Assembly: GCA_033558025.1 (NCBI GenBank)
Contig: JAUCEF010000005.1
Coordinates: forward strand, 7,130,001 to 7,194,000
Length of the DNA stretch: 64,000 bases
Direction of reading: 5' to 3'
Source of the DNA: Phytophthora sp. 'mugwort'
Lineage: Eukaryota; Oomycota; Peronosporomycetes; Peronosporales; Peronosporaceae
Positions 43,948 through 64,000 of the stretch are shown in pieces; the first letter of the stretch is position 1, and each line of letters starts with the position of its first letter. Below the pieces are notes generated by a model. It was not told the origin of the DNA, did no database searches, and saw only the letters and a list, made by a program, of their open reading frames with translations. A program made the position numbers and the translations under genes.

Positions 43948-45901
43948 ATGAGCTTTGCCGGCGAGCTCGAGTGCGCCACCGGAAACTTGGCAGGGCTTTG
44001 TCGACGAAGCTTCGGTCCTTGCGGCGAGGAGACATTGCTGTTCCGACCGCCAGAAGCGCCGTTAATTACTGGTGAGGGTCACGCCGTCCTGGCGGCGTGG
44101 AAGCGAGGACTGACTGCTGATGATCCACTGGCGACGTTCCTACTCACTGCGGCAAACGGTGTGCATCAGCAACTGGGGGACGGATCCAGTGAGTTTATTT
44201 TGCTGGTGAGTGCGGTTGCGAGGCATGCGGCTGATAGGTTGAGGCGAGAGCAGGATGCGAGGAATGCAGTTGACCGTGCACGACTGTCGAGAGCTTTTGG
44301 AGAGCTGAAGTGGGAGTTGCAAAGGGAAATGGGGACTCCCACGTCCAGCCTGTGCAGCTTGCAATTATCTGTGCCAATTGAACTCAATGTTCATACATTG
44401 CAGCCGTCGCAAAACGTACGTAGAGGTGCCTGATAGTACTGACAGGGATCGCGCTGTGGTGCTGACTATGTGTTATGTTGATGGACAGTTTCGCGAGGCC
44501 AGTTCGAACATTTTGATTTCTGCTCTACGTGGTGTGCTTGGTGAGCAAACATTGGTTTTTGTGGTCGATTTAGTGCTGAAGTGGGTATTCTCCTCTCCGC
44601 CATGCAGAAATCATGATGTACCTAAGAAGACGGACAAATTGCTGTTTAAGCGTGTGCAGCAATTTCTGAAGTGCGCACCAGACGCAGTTATTTTCATGGC
44701 TGCACCGTCTGTATATGCTTCGTACGTGGTTCCACACGACGAGTTTATCCTGAAAAAGTCAGTGGTAGCTTCGCAGCCTCCTAGAATTCTCGATCAACTT
44801 CAAGGAACCGTGCGATTTGTATGCTTTACGTGCTCACTTTCGTTGTCAGCTGGAGCTAATAATGTCGAGTTTGTAACGACAACAGACGAGGAATTGTTCA
44901 CAGCTCAAGATGCAGCGCATCTGTTTGTCTCCAAGTTTGTGCGTCGTCTGCGCGACTCGCTTCACGTTCAACTTGTCGTCAGCACCGAGGCCCTCGATGA
45001 AAGCGTAATCGCGGCCTGCACTCGCCAGGACATCGCGTGCATTCAACTTGCCGAACCGGAAGATGTGGAGAAACTTTGCAGGAGCGCTGGGGTATTTTCA
45101 CTTGCCAGTATCTTTGATGATATAACAGCGACTGAGCATCTTGGTGTATGTACAAACGGAGTGTCTCGAGTGAGATTCCAGCAACAAGCATGCGTACGTT
45201 TGCGCGGACTTTCCAAACCATGTAATCAACGCGAGTCGAAATTAAACAGTGAATACGGGGTGGAGGGCGTGATGGTTCCTCAGCTTTTGGTTCATGCACC
45301 GACGAAAGGGGTATACAAACAGTACTATGCTGCTATCGTCAAGAGTCTGCGGGTGCTCAGAAGTTGGTGGGAACCTGTCCATAGTCCAGATCCGATAGCC
45401 TACAGTTGCAGAGGCGGTGGAGCAACTGAGCTAGCGATTGCGTGCTGGCTGCAAGATGGAAGCGATACGTTTTCGACTGACGTCCAGCCGCATGATCCAG
45501 TTATGTTTTCTTTGGCGAGAGAGAGTATTGCTAGTGCTCTCATCGACGTTGTTAGTATTCTGCGGAAGAACTTGAGTGGGAATACTTCAAGTACCGAACG
45601 ACCTTGCATAGGTAACCAGAGACAGGTTCTTCTCGACGCTTTTTGTAAGCTGAAACCCAAGGGCCGACAGCTTCACGCAGATAATTTCCCCGGTTACACA
45701 CTCGACTACTCTCGGGTTATCCAGACACTGGCAGGGCCAATTCAGATACCTGAGCTCGTAGTCGGTGATCCTGCGACTTTTGGACTTGTGCATCCGTGGA
45801 GGCGCATTGACACGCTACTGTTTCTGGTGCTACAAACACTCGAGCAGCTCTTTCGAATCGATAACGTCTTTTCAAAGACATCTGTAACCAAAACGAAGTA
45901 G
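43948..45901 (+). CDS. BBS10: BBS10-like chaperonin (Bardet-Biedl syndrome 10)
   Basis: Joined 43948..44415 and 44489..45901 (donor GTACGT, acceptor GGACAG, 73-base intron), 626 residues. The start is the ATG at 43948. The N-terminal part shows the divergent group-II chaperonin signature: SFGPCGEETLLFRPPEAPLI, EGHAVLAAWKRGLTADDPLA, and GDGSSEFILLVSAVARH in the place of the ATP-binding GDGT motif. This divergent layout is typical of BBS10, which helps assemble the BBSome for ciliary trafficking and fits a zoospore-forming organism. Length is near the animal protein (about 720). The C-terminal equatorial half is recognisable by RGGGATELAIACWL. A CCAAT box lies at 43894-43898. BBS12 or a CCT relative is the alternative. 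The gene ends 55 bases from convergent PEX22. Confidence 0.75.
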
Positions 45902-45956
45902 ACCCATCATTTCCACAACATCCTCGATAATGACAGCAGTATTAGCAGGGCAAAGA

Positions 45957-46781
45957 TTAAAGTCGTTCTTTTGCACTGATCAGCGTAAAATACCCAGCGA
46001 AGTTGTTACCCACGTGAATGACGTTAGGAACCGTGGGCGTCACTGCATCCCCAGGCGAAGTCGGGATGTGCACAATACGCGGCACGTGCTTCTCCAGCTC
46101 ACGAACGACGCCAGCGTCAACTGCATCAGCAAAATATTAGTGACCACTCTCTTATAACTGCCTCATGCTTAGCTCACCTTCGACATGAATAAGAGGCTCA
46201 ATCTGGCGCACGAACGCAATCTTGCCGATCGACGTCGTGCAGAAGAGCATCTTATGCGCCTTGATGCCCCCAGAAGCTGTGTCGTTGCTCTTTAAGTCTG
46301 GATGCATTGCTACAAACTCGCGGACGTGCTGCATGGTCCCAGTATCCTTGGTATCCTTCAATGTACACAGTATGTACACGTCAGCTACGCGCGACAGATC
46401 AGCCAGTAGCGCCGGCACATCGTCGTTCGTCCAAGCCAGCGCCTCGGGATTCTCGGTCTTAAGCAACGCCTCGGCGCTGATAGTGACGGTGCGAGCGCCA
46501 TTGTGCATAGGAAGCGTGAAATGGAGACGGAGCTGGCGGTCGTTCAGCCCGGCGGTGGAGACGGCGGCACGCTCAGGCGCCGAGGCCAGCGCCGCGGACG
46601 TGGACGGTGCCATCCGTGCCAAGTTCGCTGCCGCGTTGCCGCGCTGAGACGCGTCCCCCTGGCGCAGCTGCTGCACGTACACGTAGCCCGTACTGATCAT
46701 GACCACCAGAATGATGATGAGTATGCCCAGCAGGCTGTCGTCAATCATGCCGTCCACCACCTCGGGGCTATTGGCGCTCAT
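45957..46781 (-). CDS. PEX22: Peroxin-22-like peroxisome biogenesis protein
   Basis: Joined complement(45957..46120, 46178..46781), 255 residues. The donor is GTGAGC at 46177 and the acceptor is GATGCAG at 46121. The join changes HVEG followed by a short tail into HVEVDAGVVRELEKHVPRI and keeps frame. There is one N-terminal membrane span (LLGILIIILVVMISTGYVYV) and a cytosolic domain with DVYILCTLKDT and KMLFCTTSIGKIAFVRQIEP, the hallmark of plant and fungal Pex22, then TVPNVIHVGNNFAGYF. Pex22 anchors the Pex4 ubiquitin-conjugating enzyme at the peroxisome for receptor recycling. The assignment rests on the FCT..GK..FVRQ.EP motif and topology. Divergent from TRAPPC6 across 131 bases. Confidence 0.75.
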
Positions 46782-46912
46782 GGCGATCCCTGCGTCTACT
46801 TAACGGATTATGATCGATAATAAAGCTGGCCACGTGTCACAAAAAGTGTTACATTTTAGTGACACTGTTCAGTTATGGTGTGCAATACACCACATTAGGA
46901 ATTCACGTGAAG
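46782..46912. promoter_or_regulatory. 131-base bidirectional promoter region, PEX22 / TRAPPC6
   Basis: Two divergent housekeeping genes share this short gap. It contains GTGTTACATTTTAGTGACAC-like dyad sequence at about 46846-46865 (GTGTTAC paired loosely with GTGACAC). Confidence 0.5.
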
Positions 46913-47611
46913 ATGAAGGAGGTGGCGGACGGCTGCTTCCAGCAGCTCTACGGCGAGATCGTGCGCTCCATGGTGCGTCTTCGACTCTCTTTTTGTATGG
47001 TATAGTGCCTGTATGTGTACTGATGCATATTGTCCCAGCTGGAGCGTTACCCGTGGCAGGCGGAGGGCGCCGACGCGACAACGCCGACCGCAGAGGAGGA
47101 GGCGGCGCACCGCGAGGCCGTTATCGTCAAGCTGGAGGCCATGGGCTACGATGTGGGCTGCCGCTTTGCCGAGCGTGCAGCGCGAGATCGGCCACGTATG
47201 TTGGAGCCACTGGATGTGATCAAATTCGTGTGCAAGGACTTGTGGATCGCCATTTTCAAGAAGCAGATCGACAAGCTGCAAACCAATCACCGAGGCGTCT
47301 TCGTGGTGCAGGACTTCAGCTTCCGCTGGCTGGCGGGCATCTCCGCGGCCACAGAGCAGGAGACGAGGGAGATGGCGCTGCTATTCCTCGTCTTCCCCTG
47401 CGGAATGATTCGAGGCGCGCTCGCCAACCTCGGACTCACTGCCATCGTCAATGCTGACGTCCCCGACGTCCGCGCGCTTCCTGGATGTACGTGCCACGGT
47501 TAAGAAATCATGGAGGACATAGCAGATAACTGATCGATGTTGTTGTGCGTATGTTGCGGTGCTGACGGACTTTGGACAGGTTTATTTAACATTAAGATTA
47601 AGCAGGGGTGA
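46913..47611 (+). CDS. TRAPPC6: TRAPP complex subunit 6 (Trs33/Bet3-like)
   Basis: Joined 46913..46972, 47039..47486, 47580..47611, 179 residues. Donors are GTGCGT and GTACGT; acceptors are TCCCAG and GGACAG. The last intron replaces an in-frame tail PGCTCHG with PGCLFNIKIKQG, which matches the family's final beta-strand, so the three-exon model is preferred. The protein has the Bet3-like fold sequence KLEAMGYDVGCRFAERAA, DVIKFVCKDLWIAIFKKQID, KLQTNHRGVFVVQDFSFRW, and CGMIRGALANLGLTAIVNAD. TRAPPC6 is a core subunit of the TRAPP tethering complexes, which act as GEFs for Rab1/Ypt1 at ER-Golgi membranes. Length matches the 160-180-residue family. Confidence 0.9.
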
Positions 47612-47685
47612 CGAATGGAAGAGTGAATGAAGTGCAGACATCACTCACCCGGTCAGCCACGACTGTATAAACTTCTAGTTTGCTC

Positions 47686-49443
47686 TCAGTGTTCCCCACT
47701 GCCACCGAGCAACATCTGCTTGCTGAAAGTCTCGATGAACTCATCCAGCTCGTCTGAGTGGCCTCCACGAGCACGACCTCTCGGCAACTGATCTGGGCGA
47801 TAGAAGTCGATGATTAACACTAGACGCGTCGCCTCGGGATGATGGTTGAACGCGTAGTGCAGCTTGCTGTCATCGAACACAATGAACTGACGCTCTGCAT
47901 GATACGTAGTTTCTCCACCCACCACCATAGCGCAGCATGGATCTCCGTTGGGTAGCGTAGGCACTATAAGAGGGAAGTGGACACGAAGAACATGGTTGGC
48001 TAGATCCGCCCAACCTCGGTGTGCAGTCAATGTCGTGTTGGGGCCTAGCTTCGAGAACAGCGCTGTGCGAATATTCGGGAGACTCTTGAGAATTTCTGCT
48101 GTACGAGGACACATGGAGCATGTGGGAGGCACCCACATCGTCTTGGATGCGTCGTAGGCAGGAAACGTGTAGCAAAACGGAAACACACGCCATTCGCTGT
48201 CACCTTCAGTGTAGTGTTTCTCTGGCCAGAATGGCCACGTCGCCATTTGCTGCACAGCCTGCATCTCCTCTAAAATCACGTTATAATTGTCCTTCAAAGT
48301 GTCCAGTTGGGGAAAGAGCTCCTGGTACAGATAGTAATTGGGTACATCGTCGTCCTGAATCTCCTCATCCGATGAGTAGCTCACGTTATCACCAACCCAC
48401 TCGGTCACATGTCGGGAATCTTCCTCTTCGTCCGTGCTACATTCGTCAGTTTTACGCAGACACAACAAGCGGTAGCCCATTTGATCACGACGCAACAACT
48501 CGTATAACGGGGAGTGCTCGACGAAGAAAAAGGCTTCAAGCTCCGAGTGGAATTCCTGCGGCGTAAATTGATGGATCAGCTCCCGCGTGGTGCCCGAGCT
48601 GAGCTTCGCGCCCATCGCGGCTTCGTATGACACCAACTGCTCTTGCACAATTTCAAACAGCGGGGCTTTGTTCTGCGCCGACGAAATGGGCGACAGCAGT
48701 AAGTGTTCCAAGTGATCTGCCGCCACGTCTGGCGGAATGAAGTCCGCGACGAACAACAGTCCGCCGGGCTTGAGTACACGTGCGATCTCGTTCACCGCTC
48801 GACCGAGATTCTGCACCTCTTGCAAGCTTTGCACGCCGACAGCTACGTCCACCGAGTGGGTGAGCAGGCCCTTCATCCTCTCGCACGGATGATGATACAG
48901 CCGCAGCTTCCGCTCCTGGAACTCGGGCATCTGCTCCGTGAAGCGGTTCCACGCCTCCTTGCTGCGTTCTAGCGCCTGGATGGAGATATCCAGACCCACG
49001 ACCTCCGCTTTAGGGTACAGCGTCTGTAGTTCACACAGACCGCCGCCAGCACCGCAGCCCAAGTCCAGGATTGTGAAGGCCTCGCCGCGTCGCGCCTCGT
49101 GCTGCGCGTCGACGTCCATCAGATTGTCGTAGAGCTGCAGCTGGAACCTGTCGGCCGGATAGTGAGCTAGGAACTTGCTGGCGAGGGCGTCCCCGCCCAC
49201 ATTCCCGCTGGCGACGGCTGCGATGGCCGCGGCGCTCGAGTTGACGTGCGCATCTCCGCGCGGGTGGAAGCCGACGTTGCAGCACACACGGTGGTTCTCC
49301 GCGTAGATGGGCGAGTGGAAGAGGCCGTCATAGAACTCCCGCACGCTGGGGCCACACACCTCGCTGCCTGCAGCGTGTTCGCCCGGCGCCATGAATCGTT
49401 GAATGCTCGTTTTGGGCGTCTTGTCGCCAAATGACGCCTTCAA
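47686..49443 (-). CDS. Methyltransferase fused to Asp/Asn beta-hydroxylase-like dioxygenase
   Basis: An intact 585-residue single-exon ORF. Residues 120-350 form a class-I SAM methyltransferase: ILDLGCGAGGGLCELQ (motif I), EVVGLDIS (acidic loop), DVAVGVQSLQEV, and VLKPGGLLFVADF. An acidic linker (DECSTDEEEDSRHVTEW ... SSDEEIQDDD) follows. Residues about 390-565 match the Asp_Arg_Hydrox family: WRVFPFCYTFP, NIRTALFSKLGPNTTLTAH, RGWADLANHVLRVHFPLIVP, FIVFDDSKLHYAFNHH, and RLVLIIDFYRP. His of TAHRGW (about 474) and His of KLHYAF (about 527) sit where this family binds Fe(II). The predicted activities are SAM-dependent methylation and 2-oxoglutarate-dependent hydroxylation; substrates are unknown. 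The gene ends 74 bases from convergent TRAPPC6. Confidence 0.8.
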   Translation of the reverse strand: MKASFGDKTPKTSIQRFMAPGEHAAGSEVCGPSVREFYDGLFHSPIYAENHRVCCNVGFHPRGDAHVNSSAAAIAAVASGNVGGDALASKFLAHYPADRFQLQLYDNLMDVDAQHEARRGEAFTILDLGCGAGGGLCELQTLYPKAEVVGLDISIQALERSKEAWNRFTEQMPEFQERKLRLYHHPCERMKGLLTHSVDVAVGVQSLQEVQNLGRAVNEIARVLKPGGLLFVADFIPPDVAADHLEHLLLSPISSAQNKAPLFEIVQEQLVSYEAAMGAKLSSGTTRELIHQFTPQEFHSELEAFFFVEHSPLYELLRRDQMGYRLLCLRKTDECSTDEEEDSRHVTEWVGDNVSYSSDEEIQDDDVPNYYLYQELFPQLDTLKDNYNVILEEMQAVQQMATWPFWPEKHYTEGDSEWRVFPFCYTFPAYDASKTMWVPPTCSMCPRTAEILKSLPNIRTALFSKLGPNTTLTAHRGWADLANHVLRVHFPLIVPTLPNGDPCCAMVVGGETTYHAERQFIVFDDSKLHYAFNHHPEATRLVLIIDFYRPDQLPRGRARGGHSDELDEFIETFSKQMLLGGSGEH

Positions 49444-49927
49444 GCTCCGGCCGGTGATGAGTGAAACAGAGCACGTCTATGCGACTTTGGGGTCTAGAAA
49501 ATATTTCTTCTAGAATAACAAATAGTTATTACTAAAATAAATATGTTCCTAAGCGGACAAAGACCTGGCGAAACAATCACATGGCTAAAAGTTATGCTTC
49601 ACCTTACTCTGACAGAGTCTTTCGGGTAGTCAGATAGTTAGCTACTGTACCCACTCTCTATTGTGTCCTTTTGTCGGATTGTCCAAACCGGACCTTTATC
49701 CTCAGAGTAAGGCATCGAGCAAGAAATTGGTATAGGTACGGGAGCACTTGTTAGACGCGGTGGAAACGATTAAGGTAACCAGCGCTTAGCGCAACCAATT
49801 CAACAAGTCTATAGTTTGTAATAGTTCTCAGCACAAAGCTCTATCCTTCCGTTTTGGGCGTATTTATTGGCCATTCGGAGAGTCGCGACAACTAGGATAC
49901 TCGGGCGACTTACACTGGAGGGCAATC
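49444..49927. other. Spacer between the host gene island and transposon remnant
   Basis: AT-rich, no gene. The inverted pair CTTACTCTGACAG and CTCAGAGTAAGG (about 49603 and 49704) is a weak dyad that could be an old element end. Confidence 0.35.
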
Positions 49928-50938
49928 GTGCTTATATTCATTTACGGCATGGACGCCGAGATGGTCGGGGTAATCTTAAGAAGCCACGAGCGCACCGTCC
50001 GGCACTGGATTACGAAGTTCGAGAAGACCGGATCGTTTGACACAAAGGCAAAGCAGCGCGAGCGCAGCAGCGAATGGCAAACCGAAATCATCAGCTTTGT
50101 GAATATTGTACGTGGAGGCGCATCCTTGCTTCTACATCGAAGAGCTGCAGAAGGGCTACGGCGCAGGTTTGTTCATGTAAGGAACACCCCCACCGCGTCG
50201 AGATGTCGCGTTACGGTTCGATTTATACCTCACGAGACGAAATGTTGACCAAGCGTGCAAGCGAGTCCGCACTGCGTGAACGCCAGGAGTATGTGAATCC
50301 ACTGCTACCATTCTATAGTGGTCCTGAGTAACTCGTTTTTGTGGATGAAACTTCAAAAGACGGCAGGTAAGACAAGTTGCGGTTAACGTGAAGAATTTCT
50401 GCAAATTGTTGCTAACGCTTTGTCAATGTGTAGAGTTGCTTTTTTTTTTTTTTTACGAAAGTACGCGTGGTCCAAACGAGGAGCACCCGATGTGGTCACC
50501 TTACCGTCTTCACGGGGCCATCGCCTCTCCGCGTTGGCAGCTATGGATATGAGTGGGTTTTTTTCGTGGGGGGCATACTTCCGACACTTTCACCCGGAAG
50601 GAGTTCCACCAAGTGTTTGCAACAAAGATTGCTCCGTGTTTGAACCAGTGGCCGTTGCCGAGATCGATTCTCGACAACGCCAAAATACACTGTACGAGGG
50701 ACTCCAGGAGCTGGTGCACTCAGCCGGAGCATGCTTTTCGTCTTGCCACCATACTCACCGGATTTTGAACCCAATTGAGGTGGGTTTCTCTCTTTTAAAA
50801 CGCTGCATCGTCAAGCATGCGAGTCTTGCGTTTAAGAGGGACCAGTCGCTGTTATCAATGCCGCACTTTACGAATGTACTAAGGCTCGCGACCAAGTCGG
50901 CTATGGTTTATATCGCCACTGCGGGTACTTTGAAGTAG
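49928..50938 (+). pseudogene. Tc1/IS630-type (DDE_3) transposase, frameshifted
   Basis: An N-terminal helix-turn-helix (GMDAEMVGVILRSHERTV, RHWITKFEKTGSF) is followed by broken linker frames. LVFVDETSKDGR at about 50333-50368 holds the first Asp, and AWSKRGAPDVVTLPSSRGHR, LSALAAMDMSGFFSWG follow. The second Asp block is visible as ILDNAK at about 50670-50690 in another frame. LNPIEVGFSLLKRCIVKHA at about 50764-50820 holds the Glu of the third motif. The Pro-Asp normally preceding LNPIE is lost. Four or more frame changes. A T14 run at about 50440 interrupts the core. No terminal repeats placed. Confidence 0.75.
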
Positions 50939-51607
50939 CTTTAAACATTAGTCAATGAAAGCGATTTCATTATTTTACACAACGGCCTCAGTGCGTTCTT
51001 CATCGTCTTCATCGTCACTACGTGCATGATCGACATCTTCCATATGCTGGCCGGTGGTGGTACAAATGCAGGTGCTTCGTGGAAAGGAGGGCACAGGGGG
51101 TACAAAGGCAAACCCAGCGCGCGGTGAATGTCTTGAACTCTCATTCGCAACCTCACCTGTGACTCGTTCAGCAGCACTAGTACGGTATACAAATTCCTCG
51201 CGGTCTGTGGATTAATTATTCGCATACTGTTCTAGCCTGTCGATGTGCTGCAACTGTCGAAACTTTGTGTAATAGGTGGGAGCAGTAGTAACATCTAGAA
51301 CATTACGTGTACGTTTTTTAATCCCCGACAATTATTACCTTAATTCTGTATTGAGAGTAGGTGTAACCGTTTCTAACGGTTTCTAAATATTTCTAATATA
51401 CAGCTGTTATTTTCGACGACAGCGATTCGATAAGATTAGAACAAGAGTATAGGCTTAATGTATTATACGTTGTCGCAAAAAAAAAAAGCTGTAGACCACC
51501 AATATTGAGTTAAAGTAAATTTGTAAACTCCGCGATCAATTGAATTAATTAAATTTTCTCAAACAAAACGTTACAGGCTATGTATATTAGATACATCCAA
51601 CTGAAAC
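50939..51607. other. Boundary zone before the virus-like element
   Basis: Base composition becomes AT-rich from about 51.2 kb. Contains tandem GTTTCTAACGGTTTCTAAATATTTCTAATATA-like phrases at about 51368-51400 and GTATATTAGATAC at about 51578, related to the motif at 53741. An A10 run lies at about 51478. The left terminus of the Polinton-like element probably lies here, but its terminal repeat cannot be proved because the right end is outside the window. Confidence 0.4.
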
Positions 51608-51909
51608 ATGTCGAACGATTTAACTTTTGAAAAATACAAGGGCACTCAGATTGAAGAAGTATATTCTTCTGATCCTGGTTAGTGTCGGTGGGTATTTAAT
51701 CAACCGAGTTCAAATGTAACTGAAGAGATTAAAATATTCCTACACTCCAAATTCCTCATTGATGACAATTCATATATGATGACGTGGGGAAATATCGAGG
51801 AAAGTCTCTCAAGCAGATCAGTCGAATTGACCCCAATTGTATTGATTGGCTTCGAAAGACTCAATTCGTAATTGATATATGTCGTAAGCTCTTAAAAGAA
51901 TTACACTAA
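51608..51909 (+). pseudogene. Duplicated DUF3820/ExoX-C-like small viral protein
   Basis: The reading starts MSNDLTFEKYKGTQIEEV. It holds two copies of a roughly 45-residue module with an F/W.KYKG..I..+...DP..., then C/I.W pattern: FEKYKGTQIEEVYSSDPG and, after a frame change at about 51790, RGKSLKQISRIDPNCIDWL. This pattern is that of DUF3820/exonuclease-X C-terminal modules. An in-frame TAG at 51680-51682 falls where the module normally has Tyr (TAT/TAC), so one substitution would explain it. The stop is at 51907-51909. A TATATTAGA motif lies about 28 bases upstream. Confidence 0.55.
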
Positions 51910-52003
51910 GATAATAAAAACTATTCTTAAGCTACGACAGAATTATGGGTAATCCTCAATAGTTGATCTTATTTTTTTCTTTCGACGAAATGATATTGAG
52001 AAT

Positions 52004-53725
52004 CTATACGGTAGTAAAATCGATCACTTCACCTGTAAGACGATCAAAAGTCAGCTCCTGCTCGCTCACCACGATCACCAACATATTAGTTCCCTGGCAT
52101 CCTGCGTTAGTTCCTTGGATCTGAATCGCTTGGGGCACATCAAGTTCGGTTAGATGGCTAATGTCAGCAATGGCACAGCGGTTCGTCAGAGACCACGTCT
52201 GATAGTCTAGTAATCCATTTACCAGCTCACGCTGAGATCACCATTGATTGAAGCGATTTTAGCTACCTCGTTAGTGAAGTGGTGGAAATCGTAGTCATGG
52301 CTGATATCGAAGGTCTGCTGGGAACCGATACGAACGTTAAAGTTCCGGATACTAGATCCTGGGTGTAGGGTCCATGGGGCACTATTAAAAGGACTCTGGA
52401 ACTCCTGAATAGTAGCAGAGGCAAAGCTTCCGGTTTGCTCAGCAAAAGGCATCAGAATGACATACTTAGCGTTCTTGATAGAAGCCGATAGCTGTAGATC
52501 GAATGACGCATTGAGCTGAGTTCCCTGTTTACCAATACCAGCACGCTGATAGAGCCATTGTGTATAGCAATCACTAAATCGAACCTTCTTAACTGTCTTT
52601 GAGATGATAGCCTGAGGATTCTCAAGATGTATGAACGGAACGTATAAACGAGAAGTGAAAAAAAAAGGCATGTAGGTACCATCAACAGTAGGCTCAAGTG
52701 CGTTGACAACAGCACCCCAAGAAATACTGAACCCGGCAGAAGCGGCAAGAACTCCAGCCATCGGATTACCAGTGGAAGAAGCAGAAATCATAATTGGACA
52801 TGTATTGCCAGAGGCAAGAGTACTGCTGGTCAGCGACATACCCTTCGAAGCATCGACAGTAATAGTAGAAGTACCCTGATTGACACGGAAACGAAGACGG
52901 ATTTTGCGGATTGGCCATGAGATCTAACTCCTTAAAGATTGGGTAGAGGTCTGTTAGCTTAACATTTAGCATGTATTTCCACGTTCCTATGGTTGCGTTA
53001 GCAGTAGCGACACCAGCTACAAAGGCACACGCGCCAATTAATTTGAGATTGTGGTAGAAGCTGCAGCTCCACCAAGCGAGGGCCACGACGTGGAGAAATC
53101 AGCGCCCGCGTTAGGAGGGTTTGATAACAGACGCTTTACAAGACCATCGTTGGCGATAGAATCACCACCAGTGGGGTCAGTAGTAGCGAATGAGGAAGAG
53201 AATGCAGTAGTGTTAGTATAACCATCTCCCGTTGTCGAATTTGTAGCAGAACTATACAAAGCGGACTGAGCAGCGTCTGGGTAAAGAAACGACTCCGCAC
53301 CATGCTTCTCGACGTACTAAGGAATATAGCTGGTCTGAGCGCGAGTGGGTTGTTCCAAAATAGCTTATAGTCCGACATACTAGCAACGGTCTTGCCAGTA
53401 AGTTCAAGCGACAAGCTATCGATGGCATTCCAGTTACCGCACTTAAGCGTAGAGCAGAAACGATTGGCAGCAGTAGTCTGGGCAGTAGCACCATTCTTCA
53501 TTGATATCTGTATGGAAGCATGATGTATGCATCGCGAAGGCAAGCAAATCCTTCACTTCCATTCAGCTGGGCTGTAGCATCGAGAGTTATAACACCATTC
53601 TGGTAAGATCCTTGATTAAGATCGATTACAAACGGTACGCATTTACTGGGAGATACTTTGATCTCCGGGTCGCTTTGGAGCGAGCTCTGGTATAAATACT
53701 GATCGGATAGTTGAGTTTCACTCAT
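52004..53725 (-). pseudogene. Major capsid-like protein (double jelly-roll type), frameshifted
   Basis: The minus-strand reading starts MSETQLSDQYLYQSSLQSD at 53725 and continues in several frames to the stop at 52004-52006, about 570 residues. Recognisable blocks are CVPFVIDLNQGSY, NAIDSLSLELTGKTVASM, IGTWKYMLNVKLTDLYPIF, then the longest open part (52839-52219) with SGNTCPIMISASSTGNPM, LYVPFIHLENPQ, KVRFSDCYTQWLYQR and KNAKYVILMPFAEQTGSF. The C-terminal block LLDYQTWSLTNRCAIADI follows another break. The assignment rests on size, on the N..L.NP, D.Y and ..YVILMPF landmarks of Polinton-type capsid proteins, and on context. At least four frame changes and one in-frame TAG are present. Confidence 0.65.
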
Positions 53726-53772
53726 TGTTGAATCTATATTGTTTCTAATATACTTTTGAGGAAATTAAATAT
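53726..53772. promoter_or_regulatory. Divergent viral promoter-like gap with TTTCTAATATAC
   Basis: 47 AT-rich bases between the divergent capsid-like and protease genes. TTTCTAATATAC at about 53741-53752 recurs at about 51387-51400 and, inverted, as GTATATTAGA at about 51578 before the DUF3820-like gene. A shared initiator is plausible but unproven. Confidence 0.4.
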
Positions 53773-54153
53773 ATGGGCGATCTTATAAAGCCAATCACCA
53801 GCGATCATGATCTGATTGAGGTTGCAGATCGAATAGAAGTACATCTGGATAATATATATGAATCAAACGAAATAAACGAAACCAATTCCAAGGAAAGGTA
53901 CCTACCTAGTTCTGTTAAAACTCCTAACCGTGACGTAGGGCATTAAACATGTGTTCATAATGGCGAATACTTTGATAGTATGGGTGAGGCAGGTCCTACC
54001 AAGTATGATATCAGGAAATACAATACCAAACAATACCAAGGTACATACGGAGATTATTGTGGAATATGGTTTATGCTCTGGTTGTACTGTCGTCAAAAGA
54101 ATAAGATGAAGTTACTAAGGAGATTCAAGGACTTAAACTTGACTATTCTTTAA
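53773..54153 (+). pseudogene. Adenain-like cysteine protease, one in-frame stop
   Basis: The reading runs from the ATG at 53773 to TAA at 54151-54153, with a single internal TAA at 53944-53946. Before it come MGDLIKPITSDHDLIEVADR and RDVGH; after it come TCVHNGEYFDSMGEAGPTKY, QYQGTYGDYCGIWFMLWLY and KMKLLRRFKDLN. His of GH, the FDSMG acidic region, Gln of QYQ and Cys of YGDYCG lie in the order of the adenovirus-type maturation protease catalytic residues, which Polintons share. The stop falls directly after the His, where the family has Trp. At about 127 residues it is shorter than adenovirus protease (about 200), so an N-terminal part may be missing or divergent. Confidence 0.7.
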
Positions 54154-54188
54154 ATAAAATCAGTTTCTCTTAGGCAATTAATATAATC

Positions 54189-54936
54189 ATGACCTTCAAC
54201 GAGTTAGCAGTTTCATCGACTATCCCCGAGCAAAGCTCAAGAGAGCATCAAGACCGGTACTCTATTATTGAGTAAGGATGAGTTGAATGGTATTGGTGCT
54301 ACACTCCATCTTCATCCTGAATCATATGTTAAAGCTCTTTGAGCTCGTATGTCTGGTAAAGGAACTCGGTTAACTATTACAAAAAAAGAGATTGGCTATC
54401 CATTCAAGCACATGCAAGGTGGGGGTATGCATGGAGCGAGTATCTGGGGGAAGTTTGGGGAGGTATCAAATCTGCTTTCAAAGTTGCAAAGACTCAGGCA
54501 TTTTGTCTCGAGTTGCTGATGTAGCTGTCCCCGCACTTGCAACATATGCTGGTCAGCCAACCGCAGCCATCCCAGCCAGGGGGGCTGCTATTCGATTTAT
54601 GACGGGTATTGGAGTTTATGACTCCAATAGCGATAACGAAGGAGGACGTCTGACCAAGCCTGACTTTAATAAAGGCCAAACGTGCACTTGCTTACACGAA
54701 GCGCAAGGGTATTCTTACAGATGCTGGAGATGCTAGAGAAAAGTTTTTCCTTTCCAAGGCAACCCAACCTCAGCATGAGTATTTAATTAAGTCATTTCGT
54801 GGCGAAGTCCGGCGTCGTGGTGTTGGCGTTGTCGAGCCAAAGAAAAAGGTTTTTGTAAAGGGCTCGCAAGAAGCCCGTGGGCATATGGCAAGATTGCAGT
54901 CTATGAAAAAGAACGGAGGCAGTTTTAGAATGTAAC
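54189..54936 (+). pseudogene. Gly-rich, basic minor virion-like protein
   Basis: The start ATG is at 54189 and the stop at 54934-54936. The reading passes through at least four frames plus one in-frame TGA. Blocks in order: KTGTLLLSKDELNGIGATLH, GTRLTITKKEIGYPFKHMQG, GGGMHGASIWGKFG, GGIKSAFKVAK, DSGILSRVADVAVPALATY, and a basic C-terminus GSQEARGHMARLQSMKKNGG. The WGK..GGIKSAFK amphipathic segment recalls the membrane-active helix of adenovirus pVI-like minor capsid proteins, but this is only a shape resemblance. It sits between protease and penton. Confidence 0.45.
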
Positions 54937-54972
54937 TTCCGCCTTACTTGATTTAAAAAAACTTAATCAAGT

Positions 54973-55824
54973 CTATTTTTTTGGTCTTAACAAGAGCATA
55001 ATTGAAACTGAAGTATCACGGAATCTCACCTTTTGGTCATTCTGGTTACAGATACTGATTGTGATAGTCGATCTCGAATCATTGTGGCAATTCATCCACG
55101 CATACTGAGATGGCTTATAGTTGGTCAGCTGACCAATACCCGCATCGCCTCTATCAAAAGCGCTTAGGATATCACCGGATGCGACGTATTCATTTTTGAT
55201 CAGATCACAGCGAACGATATATGAACTGGTTGGGTGAATCTGTGGAATGGTATTGGATAGCTGAGCGCTAGAGACTATTGCTGAGGCAGCAGGATATGTT
55301 GCTACAGACAATCCAAGGACAGCGCCAAAAGCAGCGCTGATGATCAGACGAGGAACGCGAGTCGTTGTAGGAAAACCAGTTCCCCCAGCTGAATATAGAC
55401 CAGTAGCAGGTCTCGTGTATCCCACAGGAAGACTCGAAGGTGTCGGAGAGAAATCAACCTGTGATGCGTAATAGACGCTGTTTTTAGTTAGCTTGATATA
55501 AAATACGTTGTTTCCAGATCCGTCAATAAGATAAGCCCCTGCATTAACAAGAGCTGTCTGGATACTTCTGTTGATATCATCGTAGCTGTAATATCGATCT
55601 GGTAGTGTAATACTGATCGTAGAAGTGGTTGCAACTGTCGAAACCTCGACTTGAAAGGTTGTGTTCTGGAATTGAATAGAATCAATGTTGAATAGACTGA
55701 TTGATTGAATTGCGCAAACAACATTGCGAAAGTCAGCTGCCGATCCCGGAAACTGATATTTCCACGACGAGTTGTATCCATCTGCTACGAGGTTGGTGCT
55801 ATCGATTTTCAAGAAACTCGCCAT
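54973..55824 (-). CDS. Penton-like minor capsid protein (intact ORF)
   Basis: An open frame of 283 residues starting MASFLKIDSTNLVADGYNSS at 55824. Features of Polinton and Polinton-like-virus penton proteins are visible: NSSWKYQFPG, VVCAIQSISLFNIDSIQFQN, TLPDRYYSYDDINRSIQTAL with GAYLIDGSGNNVFYIKL, and LPVGYTRPATGLYS. PRLIISAAFGAVLGLS and QIHPTSSYIVRCDLIKNEYV follow, then an end in MLLLRPKK. The single jelly-roll penton caps the vertices of the icosahedral shell. It is the only core gene of the element in the window with no lesion, so either the element is recent or this gene escaped by chance. Confidence 0.7.
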   Translation of the reverse strand: MASFLKIDSTNLVADGYNSSWKYQFPGSAADFRNVVCAIQSISLFNIDSIQFQNTTFQVEVSTVATTSTISITLPDRYYSYDDINRSIQTALVNAGAYLIDGSGNNVFYIKLTKNSVYYASQVDFSPTPSSLPVGYTRPATGLYSAGGTGFPTTTRVPRLIISAAFGAVLGLSVATYPAASAIVSSAQLSNTIPQIHPTSSYIVRCDLIKNEYVASGDILSAFDRGDAGIGQLTNYKPSQYAWMNCHNDSRSTITISICNQNDQKVRFRDTSVSIMLLLRPKK

Positions 55825-55857
55825 GATGACTATATGATGATCATCAAATTTTAGCTG

Positions 55858-56551
55858 TTACTTATTCAAAATCTTCAGTCTTGATTGGTTTATCGAAGTT
55901 GTATCTGATTTCCCCTTCACAGAGTCGATGAGCAACATCTGACCTTTGCTTTCAGTTGCTTTATTGTAATAATATACGATTGAGCGATCATCTACGCCCT
56001 TTATATTGAAAATTTTCACTACCATCTGGAGATCGCGTTTAGAATTAGCTTTTAGGATCGCTATATATTCAGAGTTCAACCTGATCATCTTATCAGTTGC
56101 AAAGCAGCTGTGACTTAAATATATAGTTGATAACTTGAAGTGGCGACCACTTGTCATGTAATGAGAAAATATATTCTTCTGGAGGAGCTTATATCGTTGT
56201 TGTAGTCGTCTATGATAACAAGCTTAGGCTTGTTAGAGCTCAGAGGAGTATGACGCACCTGATCAACTTTCGGGGTAAATCTGGATCAGTGAAAGTGATG
56301 AAATCTTCAAGCTTCTCGCGGAGGTACTCATACAGTTCTTGATGTGGATTACGAGCAATAACTGTGAGATGAGCAAATACATGGGGAGAATGCTTGAGAA
56401 TAATAAGACATATATTGTTCTTTCCACTGAATCAGGGTCCAAGGACAACCATTCTAAATATCTTTTTGATGCTAAGCGCAGGAATATCGCCCACACCAGC
56501 AGACTTGAACGTTTTGGGCAACGAAGCGCCATAATTTGGAATATCGCTCAT
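55858..56551 (-). pseudogene. A32-like DNA packaging ATPase, broken in Walker A
   Basis: The reading starts MSDIPNYGASLPKTFKSAGV at 56551 and then VVLGP, where an in-frame TGA interrupts the P-loop (GP, stop, F, SGKN in place of the usual GPSGSGKT). After it come PHVFAHLTVIARNPHQELYE and, in another frame, NKPKLVIIDDYNND with the Walker B Asp pair. The C-terminal block (56157-55858) GRHFKLSTIYLSHSCFATDK, LNSEYIAILKANSKRDLQMV is the HerA/FtsK-type ATPase sensor region shared with Polintons and NCLDVs. The enzyme pumps DNA into capsids. Two further frame changes exist. Confidence 0.75.
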
Positions 56552-56602
56552 GGTCGTGTCTTTTAATCGCTGGATCGATATAGATTAAGATGAAAAACAA
56601 CA

Positions 56603-58360
56603 ATGAGTTCTGGTTTCTCGTATCCTCAGCCAATATTCGTATCACCGATCTACAATCCTGAATTCTATCTGTCGTTAGACGCCACTGGTTATCTAACGTA
56701 CGAATATGCGCAGACTTTATATTTTCGCAAGAATGATTACCGACTAACCTACCTCACCGGTATTACTCCTGGGACAGCAACACAAGGTGTAGCGCTTGTA
56801 CCAGGTACCAACAGGAATATCAGCGGCATTGGAACACTATCTTGCACTAGCCTGGTTATGAATGAATCCGCCGTGTCGTCTGCTCCTGATTACGTAATAA
56901 GCATCATTCCAGGTACAGCCGCTAATGAAAAAGCATTGGTACTTGACAGCTTAGGCGCTATTGCTACTACCAGCTCGCCCACTGCTACCAACATGTACGG
57001 ACCATTAGACAGCAACTCAGCCATGAATCACGTCTGTGGGTACTCTCGCATCGCTGACGCTGGCTACAGCTGGAACAGGCTTACAGATACCATCGTTGAA
57101 GTTTTGGGATGGTGTATCGGCTTACACCACATTTAATCAGACGTATTATCTCGGTATAACAGAGGGCGGTGCTATTGGTTCTAAAACAATGATTCTCAAT
57201 TCAGCGAAAGACTTCTCAGGTGTTAATTCGTTCTCAGCTTCTACTATCAGTGGTATTACGAAGACTTCCGGCACAATTAGCGACTTCGGATCGCTTTAAA
57301 TCGGTTCAACTACAGTGATATCATCAAGTCGCAATATTTCTAATATCAACTCGCTTTCTGCTACATCGCTAACAGGTACTCTCCACACTACCTCTCAGCC
57401 AAATATTACCAGTGTTGGTACACTGACTTCTCTAAGCGTGTCTGGCAGCCTGACTGTATCGGCTAGTATAAATGGATTTTTTGGATATGGTAATCAGGCG
57501 GCTATAATGACGGTAGGATCCGTTACCGAGATCGGTATGAATACTACTCCAACGAGTGAGTATTTCGCAATTATAGGTAGTGGTTTAGATTATCTTGACG
57601 GCTCATACACCATAATGTGCCGATTTTTGGGATCGAATCTTTCGCCGATGGAATTTTCAAATAAAGGTCCATAATGGTAGCTTGGCGACTTCAACGAACA
57701 CCTCCTGGATTGGTAATATCACCGCTAATGACCTCCGATTCGGTACTTCAAACACAACTCAAATGGTTTTGACGGCCGGACAGACTCGGCATAGCAACGA
57801 ACGCCTTTCAGCGCCGCTAAACGTCCCGGGTACAGTCTCTGTCAGGTTTGGAACGGGGGCAGTACGGTCTATAGGCAGGACGGACAGTGGAGTAACGGAG
57901 AGTGCACTGGGTCCTATTAGCTATAGGGTGGCGGCAGTCTTTGGAGGTACATGGCTCGCACTGCAATGGCGATGACCTCAAACAGACGCTTAAAAAAAAG
58001 ATATTCAGATTGCGCCTCTTCGTCATATCAAAAGACTATGACAGCATTGACGTATGATTGTACGACTGGATCGAATCCGAAAATCGTCCAGGTCAAGAGG
58101 TAGTTTTCATCGCTCAAGATCTTGTTTCGGCTCATCTGACTGATTTGGTATCGGTTTTCTATAGAGATGATATTGAGGAAGGAGAAGATCCATCGCTTGA
58201 GCCTGCTAATAAACAGCTGAACGTTGATTATAGTTGCATAGCCGTTTACAATATGAAGATGATTCAGTATTTACTTAAAGAATTGAGGATCTGCGAGCCA
58301 TTATACGATAAACTTTGTGATGATAGCAAATGCACAGCTGAGCAATTTCTTTGGAGCTAA
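56603..58360 (+). pseudogene. Fibre-like protein with C-terminal S74-type chaperone domain, frameshifted
   Basis: The start is MSSGFSYPQPIFVSPIYNPE, followed by FYLSLDATGYLTYEYAQTLY, a baseplate-like N-terminus. Serine/threonine-rich repeats follow (RNISGIGTLSCTSL; RNISNINSLSATSLTGTL; QPNITSVGTLTSLSVSGSL) of a beta-helical, fibre-type shaft. The last part (58058-58360), GQEVVFIAQDLVSAHLTDLV, LNVDYSCIAVYNMKMIQYLL, matches the Peptidase_S74 intramolecular chaperone that trims and trimerises phage and viral fibres. The upstream catalytic Ser region of S74 (about 57950-58060) is broken. Frame changes occur at about 57040, 57300, 57670 and 57980. Likely a receptor-binding vertex fibre. Confidence 0.6.
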
Positions 58361-58565
58361 TATAATCATGCGAGTAACGATCTCAAAGCAAAAATGACTA
58401 CCGATAAATCAAGTCAAATGAATGACCCGACTTTATTGAAAGCGGATCAGAAGACGACTTGCCGTAGGCGTTCCGGACGGAGCTTAACCCGCGTCAATCA
58501 TATTTTTAGGTGATAGTGTGTTTCTCCCCACACAGAGTCCTGATGGAGAATCTGCCATAACTTAC

Positions 58566-61500
58566 TTAATAATTACTTGAGATTAGTATTAGTGATAAAA
58601 ATTTAACTTGATTACCGTTGGTAAGGGGCAGCCGCTGTCGACAAGTTGGCAGCACGCGCTGTTTCGAGGATATCGTAATAAACTGGTAAGAAATGGAATA
58701 AGTTAGATGGCAAAGGTTTTTACAGTTTTTGTTTTTTCTTTGGCTGGTAGTCCACAAATGTTGGGCACCAGAGGTGCCTGCTATCTTCGATAGCCTCCCT
58801 CCCTCAGTCTGAGTCGATATATCTACCTTATTGATAGTTTTGTTAAGGTCCGTTGCCCAAACAGCTGCTTGTGTTTTCTGGGGTCGATCTTGGATTATTA
58901 AATTCTTCATTATGGCTTTGAGCTCAGCGATGTTAAGTTCACTCTTTAGCTTATCATACTCCGTAGAATCTTCAACGGATCCTCAAGCTTATCGTGGAAG
59001 TTGTACTAGAGATGGGTGATGGCAAGAATCTCCTTGAACATTTTTTTATCCTCGATTTTGAGGTTATCGTATGAAGCTTGTTCGATATGTTGCTTATAGA
59101 CGAGGATTTTGATCATAGCTTAGAGACTGTCACTAATCTGACACTTAGGCCCACATTTTCGACGATGAGGCTGTACCATCACGAGTGTCTTAGAGTCTAG
59201 ATCAGGCAAACGAATGTACTTACTACCAAGCCGACGATATACGTATGCAGACGGGGTAGCTAAGCCCTGAATCTCATTCAGATTGTATGTTCTGCGGCGT
59301 CGAACTACGCCATCAAGTGGTGCAACACCAGCTCCTCTTAAGCCACGACCCTCTAATTTAGGCTTTGGATTACTGAGAGTTTCTGAATATCGCTTAGCTT
59401 TGAAATTATATACAGCCTTCGTAGCTTTAAGTGCTGATTGTGTAGCTTTCAAAGCTGACCTTATTGATGTTGAGTTTGACCCTTTCACAGCTTCATTAGC
59501 GGCTTCATATCGCTTCTGTGCCTCTCCATACTCCTAGTAAGCCCGTTCAGCGTCACCATGGAGATTTTGTAATACTTCGTCGTGATCATATGGCTCAACA
59601 CTTTGCACTTTAATATCAGATGCGTTTCTAAAAATGACTGCACGGACAATCTTGAAATTGGCATTTACATTCTTAATCATTTTCAGCTTATCTTTGGTTG
59701 CTGGAGCTTCAATATTACTCACAGCCTGATGTACATCTTCCAACTCATTTAGTAGCAGATCGGACGTATCTACCCATCTAATAGTTTTCATAACATCAGT
59801 CTAAGCTTTTCCGTAAACAATTTTAGTTTTCTTGTTTCTGATGTTTAGAATACGATCACGCATTGGGGCACCGAATAATAGGTTGGGTGAGTTTTTACAC
59901 CATTTCTAGAATCTACCACAGGTCGAAGGCGAAATGGAATCATAACCTTCTCATCAAAAATCTTATGATAATACTCGTACAGCATTTTCTTAGCTTCACT
60001 GTCGGGGATAGATAAATTTTGATCCAAGTCTTCGTCTATTCCAGTTTTAATACCATGGCGTCCGTCTCGTAGTAGATTTATATGATTTTATAGCCCTTTC
60101 AGCATCCATTTCCCCACCATAGAGAGTTCTAACCCCCTGCTCTTGACCCTGTTCAAAACGGCTCGGAGTGTTGATTGCCATTCAACCTTGTTGTTTGATG
60201 ATGGGTGTTTCAAATTTGATTCGTTTCCATGCGTATCTATGGATTCTTGTTTTACCCAAACATACTGTTTGAGGTTGTTTCCGTCAGATTTATACATCTC
60301 TTTGTAGATTAGTACAGCACTCTTCATCAGACCATTAGACTCTAACATCTCCATGTTTTTTGAAATAATCCAAAGCAACTGGATTCGCTTGTGTTCATTA
60401 TCAGCTGTTGTCGAAGTTGATTTCCGACCAAAGTGAATGTCAGGTAGTTTACGATCCTTAAGAATAACTTCGAGTTCCTCTAATTCCTCACCAGCTCGCT
60501 TCTTTTTTTCAATTGCGTGACTGTTCGCGCTTGAGTTCCTCATCACGCATGGCTCCAACTTCATCAATTGAGTTACTTTCAGCTTCATATAAGATATCCC
60601 TGATTAGTTCTTCTGTAGCTACCCAGTCAATATGCTTATATCCTTTGTATTTTGTCCCAGTATGTACTGATCTGAGAGAACCCTTTTCTCTAATAGCATA
60701 CTTTTCATCTTGCTTACCCGCTTTTTTCTAATGGGATGAATACCAATTGAAGCCCAGTTTGGATTTTCTATGTAGAGATTCTTAATCCAGGTCCTGGAAT
60801 GAACTTGCTCTTCCGTATCAACATTATTAGAGCTTAAGCCTCTTTTTGTTGATGCTGCAACATTTATCATTGTTGAAGTGTTATCAATTGCAGTATTCAC
60901 CATTTGTGGACTGTTGTTAACACCAACACCATATGTTATGGGTTGAGCCTGTGCGTTTCGATAGTCACTCGATTTGTATTCGTAAAAGGGCTCTTTGTTC
61001 TAGCACTATTATCAACTTCGGCATCTACAATAACTGGACTAACATCTACTTCAGGAATTGATGAGACCTCAGGGTTCGTCTGGGAGAATTTATCATTCAG
61101 AGTTTTTTCTAAAGGAATCAGACAAATCTGTCTGGGTAAATCTGTATGGGTTGATGTAGATAATGATGTCTATTCCAAATCGATATTTTTATTTTCGGCA
61201 TCGCTGGTCCACGATGCACCTTCATACATACCGCACTTGGTGTTAGCTTGTGTAACGCGTCGCTGAGCTCGCTCAAGAAGCTCCTGTCGCTTTTCCTCTC
61301 TCTGAGCGAGGCATTTGAAATTGGGAACATTGTGGCTATATCATGCGTATCATAAAAAATGTCATGAGTACGCATAATTACCAAAAGCTCGGCATAACTG
61401 AATCATGTCGGTACGGGAGATATGTATGACAGATGGTTTTTCTTTCTGTTAAAAGACTGAAATATCTGTCTTTAATGCAATGAAATGGAACGCCAAATAT

Positions 61501-61660
61501 TGCTTCCAGTTCGCGTTTATATTTACGATTTACAACAGTTGAGCGGAAATTGGATACAGCATAAAGATCAGCAGCTCGTTTTTTATACGGCATACTTCCT
61601 GAATGATCCATAACATTCGACGTATCTTAACAAGTTCATGGTCTTTACCTAAGCAGTTCT
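58566..61660 (-). pseudogene. Unassigned viral coding block in many frames, probably more than one gene
   Basis: The minus strand carries a chain of coding-like frames. From right to left: VNRKYKRELEAIFGVPFHCI (about 61540), TWIKNLYIENPNWASIGIHP (about 60790), a helical charged block at 60588-60088 (RAGEELEELEVILKDRKLPD, WIISKNMEMLESNGL), KKMLYEYYHKIFDEKVMIPF (about 59980), HQAVSNIEAPATKDKLKM (about 59730), then YVYRRLGSKYIRLPDLDSKT (about 59240). The last block resembles a short KYI-x-L motif region that often ends minor-capsid-type proteins of these elements. No overall family is recognised. Whether this is one long protein or two or three genes is not resolved. Confidence 0.5.
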
Positions 61661-61790
61661 TACACATTTATTTATCCTTAGAGTCTATATATAGAGTCGT
61701 ATATATTCTTACAAAAAAAAAATAGTTGTGATTATATACTATAGTCAAAGCTTACAGAGGATATATCTATCAAAATTATTTCCAAGCTGA

Positions 61791-62878
61791 TTATGTCTCG
61801 AAGTTTATATATTTTTTGAATCCCAGTACTCCTTTTGAGAGTCGATTTTCGGTTTTGTTGACCAAGCGGAGATTGTCTTGTGGCTCCCACGTTGAATCAT
61901 CATAACCAATCCATTTTATTAAAAATTTGTGCTTCTTATTCTTCATCATTTTATGATCTATGATCTTCTCAGCTTCGAGGATATCCCCACGATTGATCGT
62001 TGTATTAGTTGTCTCTGATTGTATCATTTTCAGATCATTTGCTGCCTTGTAGAGCGTATCACCATTTCTGGACTTGATTTGTACTCGGTAGCCGTCTCTT
62101 CCGACAATCGTATACACAGCTTTGCTCCAACGAGCTGACTCTTTGCTGAATGTTTGCTTCTTGAGTCGGTATAGCACATTTGTACCTACTTCAAATTCGT
62201 TGTCAGCTTTATCAGCTACCGCTTAATTGTGATCCAGCCCCGGCTCCATGACCTTACCTTTGGCCTCATTTGGAGTCATTCCGATAAATCTGTGAATAGT
62301 GTCATTACAGTTAACAATAATGTCGTTGATAAGCTTCTGCGTAACCTTCTTGGGTGATATCTTAGTTAGCCTCTGCTTTATCGTTCTGTTGAATCGCTCG
62401 ATTTTTCCATCGTTCCGTGATCTCCTGGCTCGTTGTTATAGTACTCGATATCTTTGGATTTAAACCATGCTTATGCTTGTTTGTTCATGAACTCACTCCC
62501 ATGTCGCTGGTGATAATGTCTGCCTCATGAGATCGAATGAAATCTTTTAGCGCAGCCAATATGACTGATGCAGTCTTATTTTTGAGTACTTAGCGTAGGC
62601 AATCCGTGAGTTGATATTGATAACTGTCAGTATTGGTCGGTTTTCCCAAAAGCCGAGATCCATCTGCCATGAATTTTGGTTATGGGACGTGATCTTGAAC
62701 CCATCGTAGTGTCTTTTCTGTTCCTGGAAGCGTTGAATATCTGGCCGAGTCCCATACCATTCCTTGACTATTTTGATCGTTATTTTGGGGTCCAATTCTC
62801 TCGCTTTCTGATATAGAGCTCGAGCAGCAACATATCCGGGTTTTATTTTATAGTAGAGTTTCTTCAAAGCTTAGCCAT
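61791..62878 (-). pseudogene. Retroviral-type integrase with C-terminal chromodomain, frameshifted
   Basis: Start ATG at 62878 (one frame change within the first codons), end at 61791. The N-terminal helical block IKPGYVAARALYQKARELD leads to the DDE core: SWQMDLGF with the first Asp and ILTVININSRIAYAKYSK (about 62690-62600), DIITSDMG with the second Asp (about 62515), and KIERFNRTIKQRLTKI with the Glu (about 62405). VNCNDTIHRFIGMTPNEAKG and a strand domain (VYTIVGRDGYRVQIKSRNG) follow. Residues near the end form a chromodomain (ILEAEKIIDHKMMKNKKHKF, LIKWIGYDDSTWEPQDNL). Chromodomain-bearing integrases mark Polintons and guide insertion to modified histones. At least two frame changes and one stop. 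Confidence 0.85.
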
Positions 62879-62894
62879 AGTATGTATTTTGTAA

Positions 62895-64000
62895 TCAGAT
62901 ACAAATTATACGACTTCTGTTTTCGACTCTCTCTATATTTAGTGGGATAGTTGATATTCCATTCGAAGACACTTGTCGCTTATCGTTGAAATATGATAGT
63001 GCAGTTTTGGTCTTACTGTATGTGATGATTGATTTAGTTTCTTTTGACAGCATAAATCCCTTGTTAGTACCCCGATGTGTGATACGATCGCGAACAACGG
63101 ACTCAAACTTCAAAAGGGGCAAGCGCATCCTCATTGCGGCCACGACTTTGCTGTACACCCTAGGCTGAAACCTTCACCTTGTATAACCCATCTGGAAGAC
63201 AGCAAATATAGTTCTTACTCGATAGTGGAACCCTAGCATCGCCTGACCATTCATCCTTGAATAGACCAGGGGTTCGACGGTCAAACTTAGCTATTTCCTT
63301 GTTATAGTCGCGCGGGAACCAATCGTACTTGTGTTTTCGTTATGCTTACGTAGCTCAGGTTTGATGCACTCTTGAAATGGTTTGCTGCAGCTAAAGCGAT
63401 GTTGGCAGAGTCCGTGTCCATCTCTTGATACTGAAAATCGCTTCGATCGAGGTAAAAGTCAATACAATCGTAGTAGAACTTGAGCATGCGTAGATCGTTA
63501 AACTCCTCTAACCCATGAAATGTGTAGTGTTCAATACGCGACTTGATCTTAGCCTCAGATCATATTTGACTTATGTATGCTTACTCTTGTCCATGCCCGA
63601 TCGTCCACAAGCAGAGTTGCCTACCAATTTCATCATCTCAGCAATCATAGCCTTACTCTTATCCTCGTCGCCGACACGACGTGCGCTCGATACAGCATCC
63701 ATAAATGGTGCAAAGGTTTTGTGAGCGCTGGCTTTAATGAAGGAGTATGTTTTTGTTATTTCCTTCCTTGGGCTAGATACCATTTGAGAAGAGGTGCATA
63801 GATCAGAATTTTCTCACCGAAATAACTACCGATCAACTTACGAGCAGGCTTAGCTCGGCTTTTTCCATGAGTCTGGTTGTACTGATACATGTGTGAGCCA
63901 ATGATGGTCTCATCGGTGCAATCGATTAGTGTATTCTTGAAATTGGTGTCATCTCGCTAAAGTACTCTTTGAGGTACTCTGGGGTACGAATGTCGCATTC
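62895..64000 (-). pseudogene. Protein-primed DNA polymerase B, C-terminal part, runs off right edge
   Basis: At the right edge the minus strand reads IRTPEYLKEYFSEMTPIFKN, IIGSHMYQYNQTHGKSRAKP, then LIGSYFGEKILIYAPLLKWY. Further left come KTFAPFMDAVSSARR and AEMMKLVGNSACGRSGMDKS (63783-63571), the conserved PolB palm motif. After a break MLKFYYDCIDFYLDRSDF and the catalytic EMDTDSANIALA (about 63430-63385) follow. The C-terminal block KFESVVRDRITHRGTNKGFM ends at 62895. KxxGNSA plus DTDS defines Polinton-type protein-primed PolB. Frame changes at about 63790, 63560 and 63290. The N-terminal exonuclease and TPR parts lie outside the window. Confidence 0.85.

Follow-up and report, generated by a model that had tools for sequence, protein, structure and literature searches.

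Oomycete major capsid proteins (MCPs) fall only into five Gossevirus (GKS1) clusters, according to the passages of PMC7805220 and PMC10120064 drawn on here; the same passages report as many as 299 MCP copies for a single oomycete genome and four integrated oomycete elements that carry both an RVE integrase and a protein-primed family B DNA polymerase (pPolB). Almost all of the original Maverick-Polinton MCPs fall into one, mainly metazoan, cluster in the cited section of PMC10120064, and the cited section of PMC12220804 describes S74 fibres, GIY-YIG genes and 6-bp duplications in Polinton-like viruses (PLVs). In this study, an element related to these systems was analysed in the window, the whole 64,000-base stretch C5:7130001-7194000 of an 86.26-Mb assembly with 154 contigs (G000). 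The element occupies C5:7181284-7200102 (18,819 bp), from window position 51284 to 6.1 kb beyond the right window edge, and is, with high probability, a provirus of an integrating PLV that is old and dead; the Gossevirus (GKS1) group is its most probable affiliation, and it carries a Polinton-type replication and integration module. An initial annotation of the window had proposed an endogenous element of Polinton type, hosted by an oomycete, and the gene set, a single pair of terminal inverted repeats (TIRs), a 6-bp target duplication and the capsid folds all agree with this proposal. The features of the locus are given below, where L009 is the DNA to the right of the window and L009 position 6102 is the last base of the element.

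51278..51283, no strand: left half of the target-site duplication, GGGAGC, sharing 5 of 6 bases with the right half
51284..51519, plus strand: left TIR, paired with the reverse complement of L009 5881-6102
51554..51903, plus strand: small ExoX-like_C protein gene, broken (two frames, two stops by tblastn with open relatives)
52007..53764, minus strand: double-jelly-roll MCP gene, broken
53755..54150, plus strand: adenain-like cysteine protease gene, broken, family assigned by motif
54132..54932, plus strand: gene for a probably virion-like protein without assigned family, GGG-rich and with a hydrophobic stretch, broken
54973..55857, minus strand: penton (minor capsid) protein gene, frame open, 294 codons
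55871..56649, minus strand: A32-type packaging ATPase gene, broken, six tblastn pieces
56585..58297, plus strand: fibre-like protein gene with a C-terminal S74 (endosialidase chaperone) domain, broken
58566..61402 (extent approximate), minus strand: remains of one or more large conserved genes, as pieces of open reading frames (ORFs)
61791..62870, minus strand: rve integrase gene with a C-terminal chromodomain, broken
62895..64000 and on to L009 2539, minus strand: catalytic part of a family B DNA polymerase (PolB) gene, broken
L009 6103-6108: right half of the target-site duplication, GGGAGT
49928-50938, plus strand, outside the element: probable DDE transposon remnant (HTH_29 0.041 and DDE_3 0.02, both under the curated cut-off)

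The two TIRs were 73% identical (51285-51519 against the reverse complement of L009 6101-5881, gaps counted), with a Kimura two-parameter divergence of 0.197 and identity at 145 of 175 aligned sites; for one other TIR pair the divergence was 0.161 over 181 sites. A genome search with the left TIR returned 40 matches, many of which started at its first base. Since the outer end read AGTAGTAAC in six and AGTCGTAAC in one of the seven plus-strand loci that were printed, the start of the element was placed at 51284; its right end reads TGTAGTAAC. Six other TIR pairs, chosen by eye from the 40 matches, had perfect 6-bp target duplications in four cases and one mismatch in two, and 10 of their 12 outer ends read AGTAGTAAC (three of these 12 ends are also among the seven plus-strand loci). 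No inverted repeats of 20 or more bases were found inside window positions 45000-64000, and comparison of the L009 part with the last 16 kb of the window gave the terminal pair and one short L009 self-match, and nothing else. The capsid genes, the integrase gene and the PolB gene are one insertion between these paired termini. The initial annotation had set the extent at 51300..64000, expected a TIR at about 51.2-51.6 kb and proposed looking to the right of the window for the terminal repeat and target duplication that would establish a single insertion. Both were found there, the repeat diverged and the duplication imperfect, and the left TIR lies where it was expected, but the extent had to be revised at both ends, much of PolB being outside the window.

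Most window genes were identified via open relatives in the same genome, because the window ORF pieces gave only Chromo above the Pfam cut-off and otherwise weak matches. By tblastn with open relatives, the MCP gene was recovered in five pieces in three frames. The fold predicted for an MCP relative, which is homologous to Phytophthora proteins including some of P. infestans, grouped with Sputnik and mavirus, virophage MCPs being closest by a narrow margin, and the fold predicted for the window's own penton protein grouped with the pentons of PBCV-1, mavirus and adenovirus, so that the capsid readings of the initial annotation have the double-jelly-roll and penton matches on which they depended. 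The capsid and penton profiles found no virophage chains among the PDB sequences at E-values up to 1; the weak matches of the MCP profile to haemoglobin and S18 were taken as chance. A scan of viral_contigs with the MCP alignment gave pattern matches only, with no relative confirmed.

The protease gene showed 63% identity to a 140-residue open relative with one in-frame stop in tblastn, and single-base gaps in the DNA alignment. The pattern G.W...DSMG...Q.QG...CG, which we take to be that of an adenain-like protease, was kept in nine protease relatives, eight of which had His at the His column. This motif supports the protease assignment of the initial annotation, while profile searches of Pfam, PHROG and PDB gave no significant match, two PDB rows being taken as chance, and none of the 99 matches of a Peptidase_C48 genome search (150 of 194 candidates scored) lay at the window element. 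An open relative of the ATPase (L012:743-1519) matched Pox_A32 (5.6e-9), and the window piece 55858-56223 matched a terminase PHROG (4.2e-5). The fibre gene was found in four frame pieces by tblastn with two relatives; an open relative (L013:104-1465) matched Peptidase_S74 (3.7e-9) and a tail-fibre PHROG (3.8e-10), and the window piece itself matched a PHROG of unknown function (8.4e-5). The paired termini enclose the MCP, penton and A32-like ATPase genes together with the integrase and PolB, in the single block that had been proposed.

The integrase with chromodomain was borne out by a Chromo match in the window (4.3e-10) and an rve match in an open relative (5.4e-10). The window gene had 59% identity and five stops in tblastn against the open relative L093, and an rve_3 match on a window ORF piece was under the cut-off (0.015). 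PolB was spread over several short ORFs. L009:395-1141 matched an open frame of 1336 residues, for which a PF03175 match was obtained as well, and the window ORFs of the region carry DTDS and K..GNS...GR, which we assume to be PolB motifs; a Pfam scan of the window PolB pieces gave no match. The polymerase of the earlier proposal is thus supported by homology and motifs, and its protein priming is putative. A genome search with rve, in which 150 of 1493 candidates were scored, was dominated by other matches, mostly in long frames, and on many contigs the scored matches bunched in one stretch per contig (e.g. C1:2.76-2.83 Mb and C4:2.32-2.48 Mb), as would presumably be expected if retrotransposons mark centromeres.

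Three relatives of the ExoX-like_C protein matched PF20600 (1.3e-17 to 1e-21). The GGG-rich protein gene, whose position suggests a virion-like product, was found in four pieces in three frames by tblastn, and its relatives (243-304 residues) had no significant Pfam or PHROG match. The stretch 58566..61402 may represent a single gene; its piece 59120-59533 had at least 185 genome matches, some in open frames of 790-863 residues, and the scanned pieces gave no significant family match. Near the right TIR, L009:4457-5437 (minus strand) holds overlapping ORFs of an apparently broken, possibly captured gene, with no Pfam or PHROG match except SR-25 under the cut-off.

Stops or frame breaks were present in seven of the eight genes compared (ExoX-like, MCP, protease, GGG-rich protein, ATPase, fibre and integrase), the penton gene being the only one with an open frame, and PolB was also fragmented. 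The near-complete virion gene set of the initial annotation is therefore present in its named genes but intact in the penton alone, and the intact gene set of a functional virus was not found. The insertion appears to be old. In its present state the copy cannot function, except if its breaks arose in assembly, a problem of which the cited part of PMC10120064 warns for short-read assemblies; the divergence of the TIRs argues against such errors.

Genome searches, in which at most 150 candidates were scored each, gave counts of matches rather than elements, and these are lower bounds. The penton gave at least 146 matches in the 86-Mb genome, distributed over at least 109 places that are separated by more than 3 kb and include the window's; the MCP gave at least 156, the PolB piece at least 162, the integrase piece at least 150 and the A32 family at least 36. 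Among the 30 best of the 146 penton matches (the window's included), 28 lay no more than 9 kb from an MCP, 21 no more than 13 kb from an integrase and 21 no more than 15 kb from a PolB, and 18 were this close to all three; these neighbour counts are lower bounds from hand-entered places (129 of 156 for MCP, 65 of 150 for integrase and 59 of 162 for PolB), the lower-ranked of which were picked by contig. Four copies on C12 have the MCP at a different distance, where it probably belongs to a neighbouring copy. The order of the genes and the distances between them recur from copy to copy, relatives were listed from many Phytophthora species, and the window copy is not unusual in its genome. Its supposed distinction, the retention of the whole morphogenesis module, was not supported, given the decay of the module and the number of penton places.

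A tandem array carrying the virus is located at C12:2336008-2415263, and many further copies lie on this contig. In the array, four penton matches of equal score are spaced 26,420, 26,415 and 26,420 bases apart, a period shared by the MCP, the ATPase and the large conserved gene. A fifth penton match is on the opposite strand at C12 2447650.

The GC content was 0.415 in 51284-64000 and 0.530 in 45001-51000 to its left, in agreement with the AT-rich block with genes on both strands that had been described. The host lipase gene of the window had 88% identity to relatives, none identical among the 120 listed, and because the best named one is in Phytophthora cinnamomi, the host was taken to be an oomycete, either a Phytophthora or a near relative of that genus. 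The element had been put directly next to a host gene island, but the probable DDE transposon remnant intervenes between it and ORF 47686-49443, which we read as a putative methyltransferase-like host gene. An RVT_1 piece (4.9e-7) lies about 1.4 kb to the right of the element.

A classical Maverick-Polinton of the animal type would have the same genes (rve integrase with chromodomain, PolB, protease, ATPase, MCP and penton), the TIRs and the 6-bp duplication, but this origin is improbable, since PMC10120064, in the section cited, puts the oomycete MCPs in the Gossevirus group and the original Polinton MCPs almost all in the mainly metazoan cluster, and the fold of the MCP relative is nearest to virophage MCPs, by the narrow margin noted. 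The capsid is most probably to be placed with the Gossevirus (GKS1) group rather than the animal cluster, a placement based on published descriptions. That two side-by-side insertions with separate termini supplied the capsid genes and the integrase with PolB, respectively, can be virtually dismissed, because one TIR pair with a matching 6-bp duplication encloses both gene sets, and 18 of the 30 penton places inspected have the same gene set with similar spacing.

The open penton frame, whose length differences from relatives sum to whole codons, might instead be retained by the host while the remainder decays, for instance if its product defends against related viruses by interfering with their capsids. 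In line with this, among four genes compared, changes private to the window at first and second codon positions were proportionally fewest in the penton (16/463, against 17/398 for the ATPase, 73/1069 for the MCP and 28/232 for the protease). However, the ATPase, though broken, has a share almost as small, and the excess at third positions in all four genes (27/87 for penton, 17/80 for ATPase, 114/349 for MCP and 25/73 for protease) fits selection before insertion. Nor is it surprising that one of about nine genes should have an open frame. The codon-position comparison does not single out the penton, and we regard co-option in a dead provirus as very unlikely.

As a provirus of a PLV, the element would have derived from a virus that entered in a capsid of double-jelly-roll capsomers, pentons and an S74-matured fibre. 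Its linear DNA would have been copied by a protein-primed PolB from the TIRs, the protease would have matured the capsid and the A32-type ATPase filled it, and the rve integrase would have carried out insertion, for which the chromodomain may help to choose chromatin. Insertion left the 6-bp target duplication, with 5 of 6 bases still shared, and was followed by decay through stops, frame breaks and TIR divergence. The copy is a well-bounded addition to the known PLV load in Phytophthora, and the chromosome-scale assembly shows the exact termini and 6-bp target duplications of Phytophthora PLVs; the window copy alone raises no new question.

In comparison with known systems, the mavirus and Sputnik virophages are among the closest capsid and penton folds, and mavirus, as described in the cited part of PMC7805220, also has a pPolB and an RVE integrase, but the profiles matched none of the virophage chains. 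The PLVs in the cited part of PMC12220804 share the S74 domain in the C-terminal part of the fibre protein, and also the GIY-YIG gene, which was seen here adjoining the MCP gene of another copy, on C14 (L043:693-1232, 5.1e-8), no search having been made for it in the window element. With Maverick/Polinton elements the locus shares PolB, an rve integrase, a protease assigned by motif, ATPase, a double-jelly-roll MCP and penton, TIRs with a 6-bp duplication and a size of 15-20 kb, whereas the MCP clustering in the published sections cited sets oomycete elements apart. The Gossevirus (GKS1) PLVs, as portrayed in those sections, are alike in the oomycete host, MCP, minor capsid protein, ATPase and, by motif, cysteine protease, in RVE and pPolB in some members, and in TIRs, 5-7 bp target duplications, high copy number and an MCP model closest to the Sputnik virophage MCP, as the predicted fold of the MCP relative is here. 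The window copy differs in being degraded, is likened to the published elements by their descriptions, and is most simply a degraded additional copy of an already described kind.
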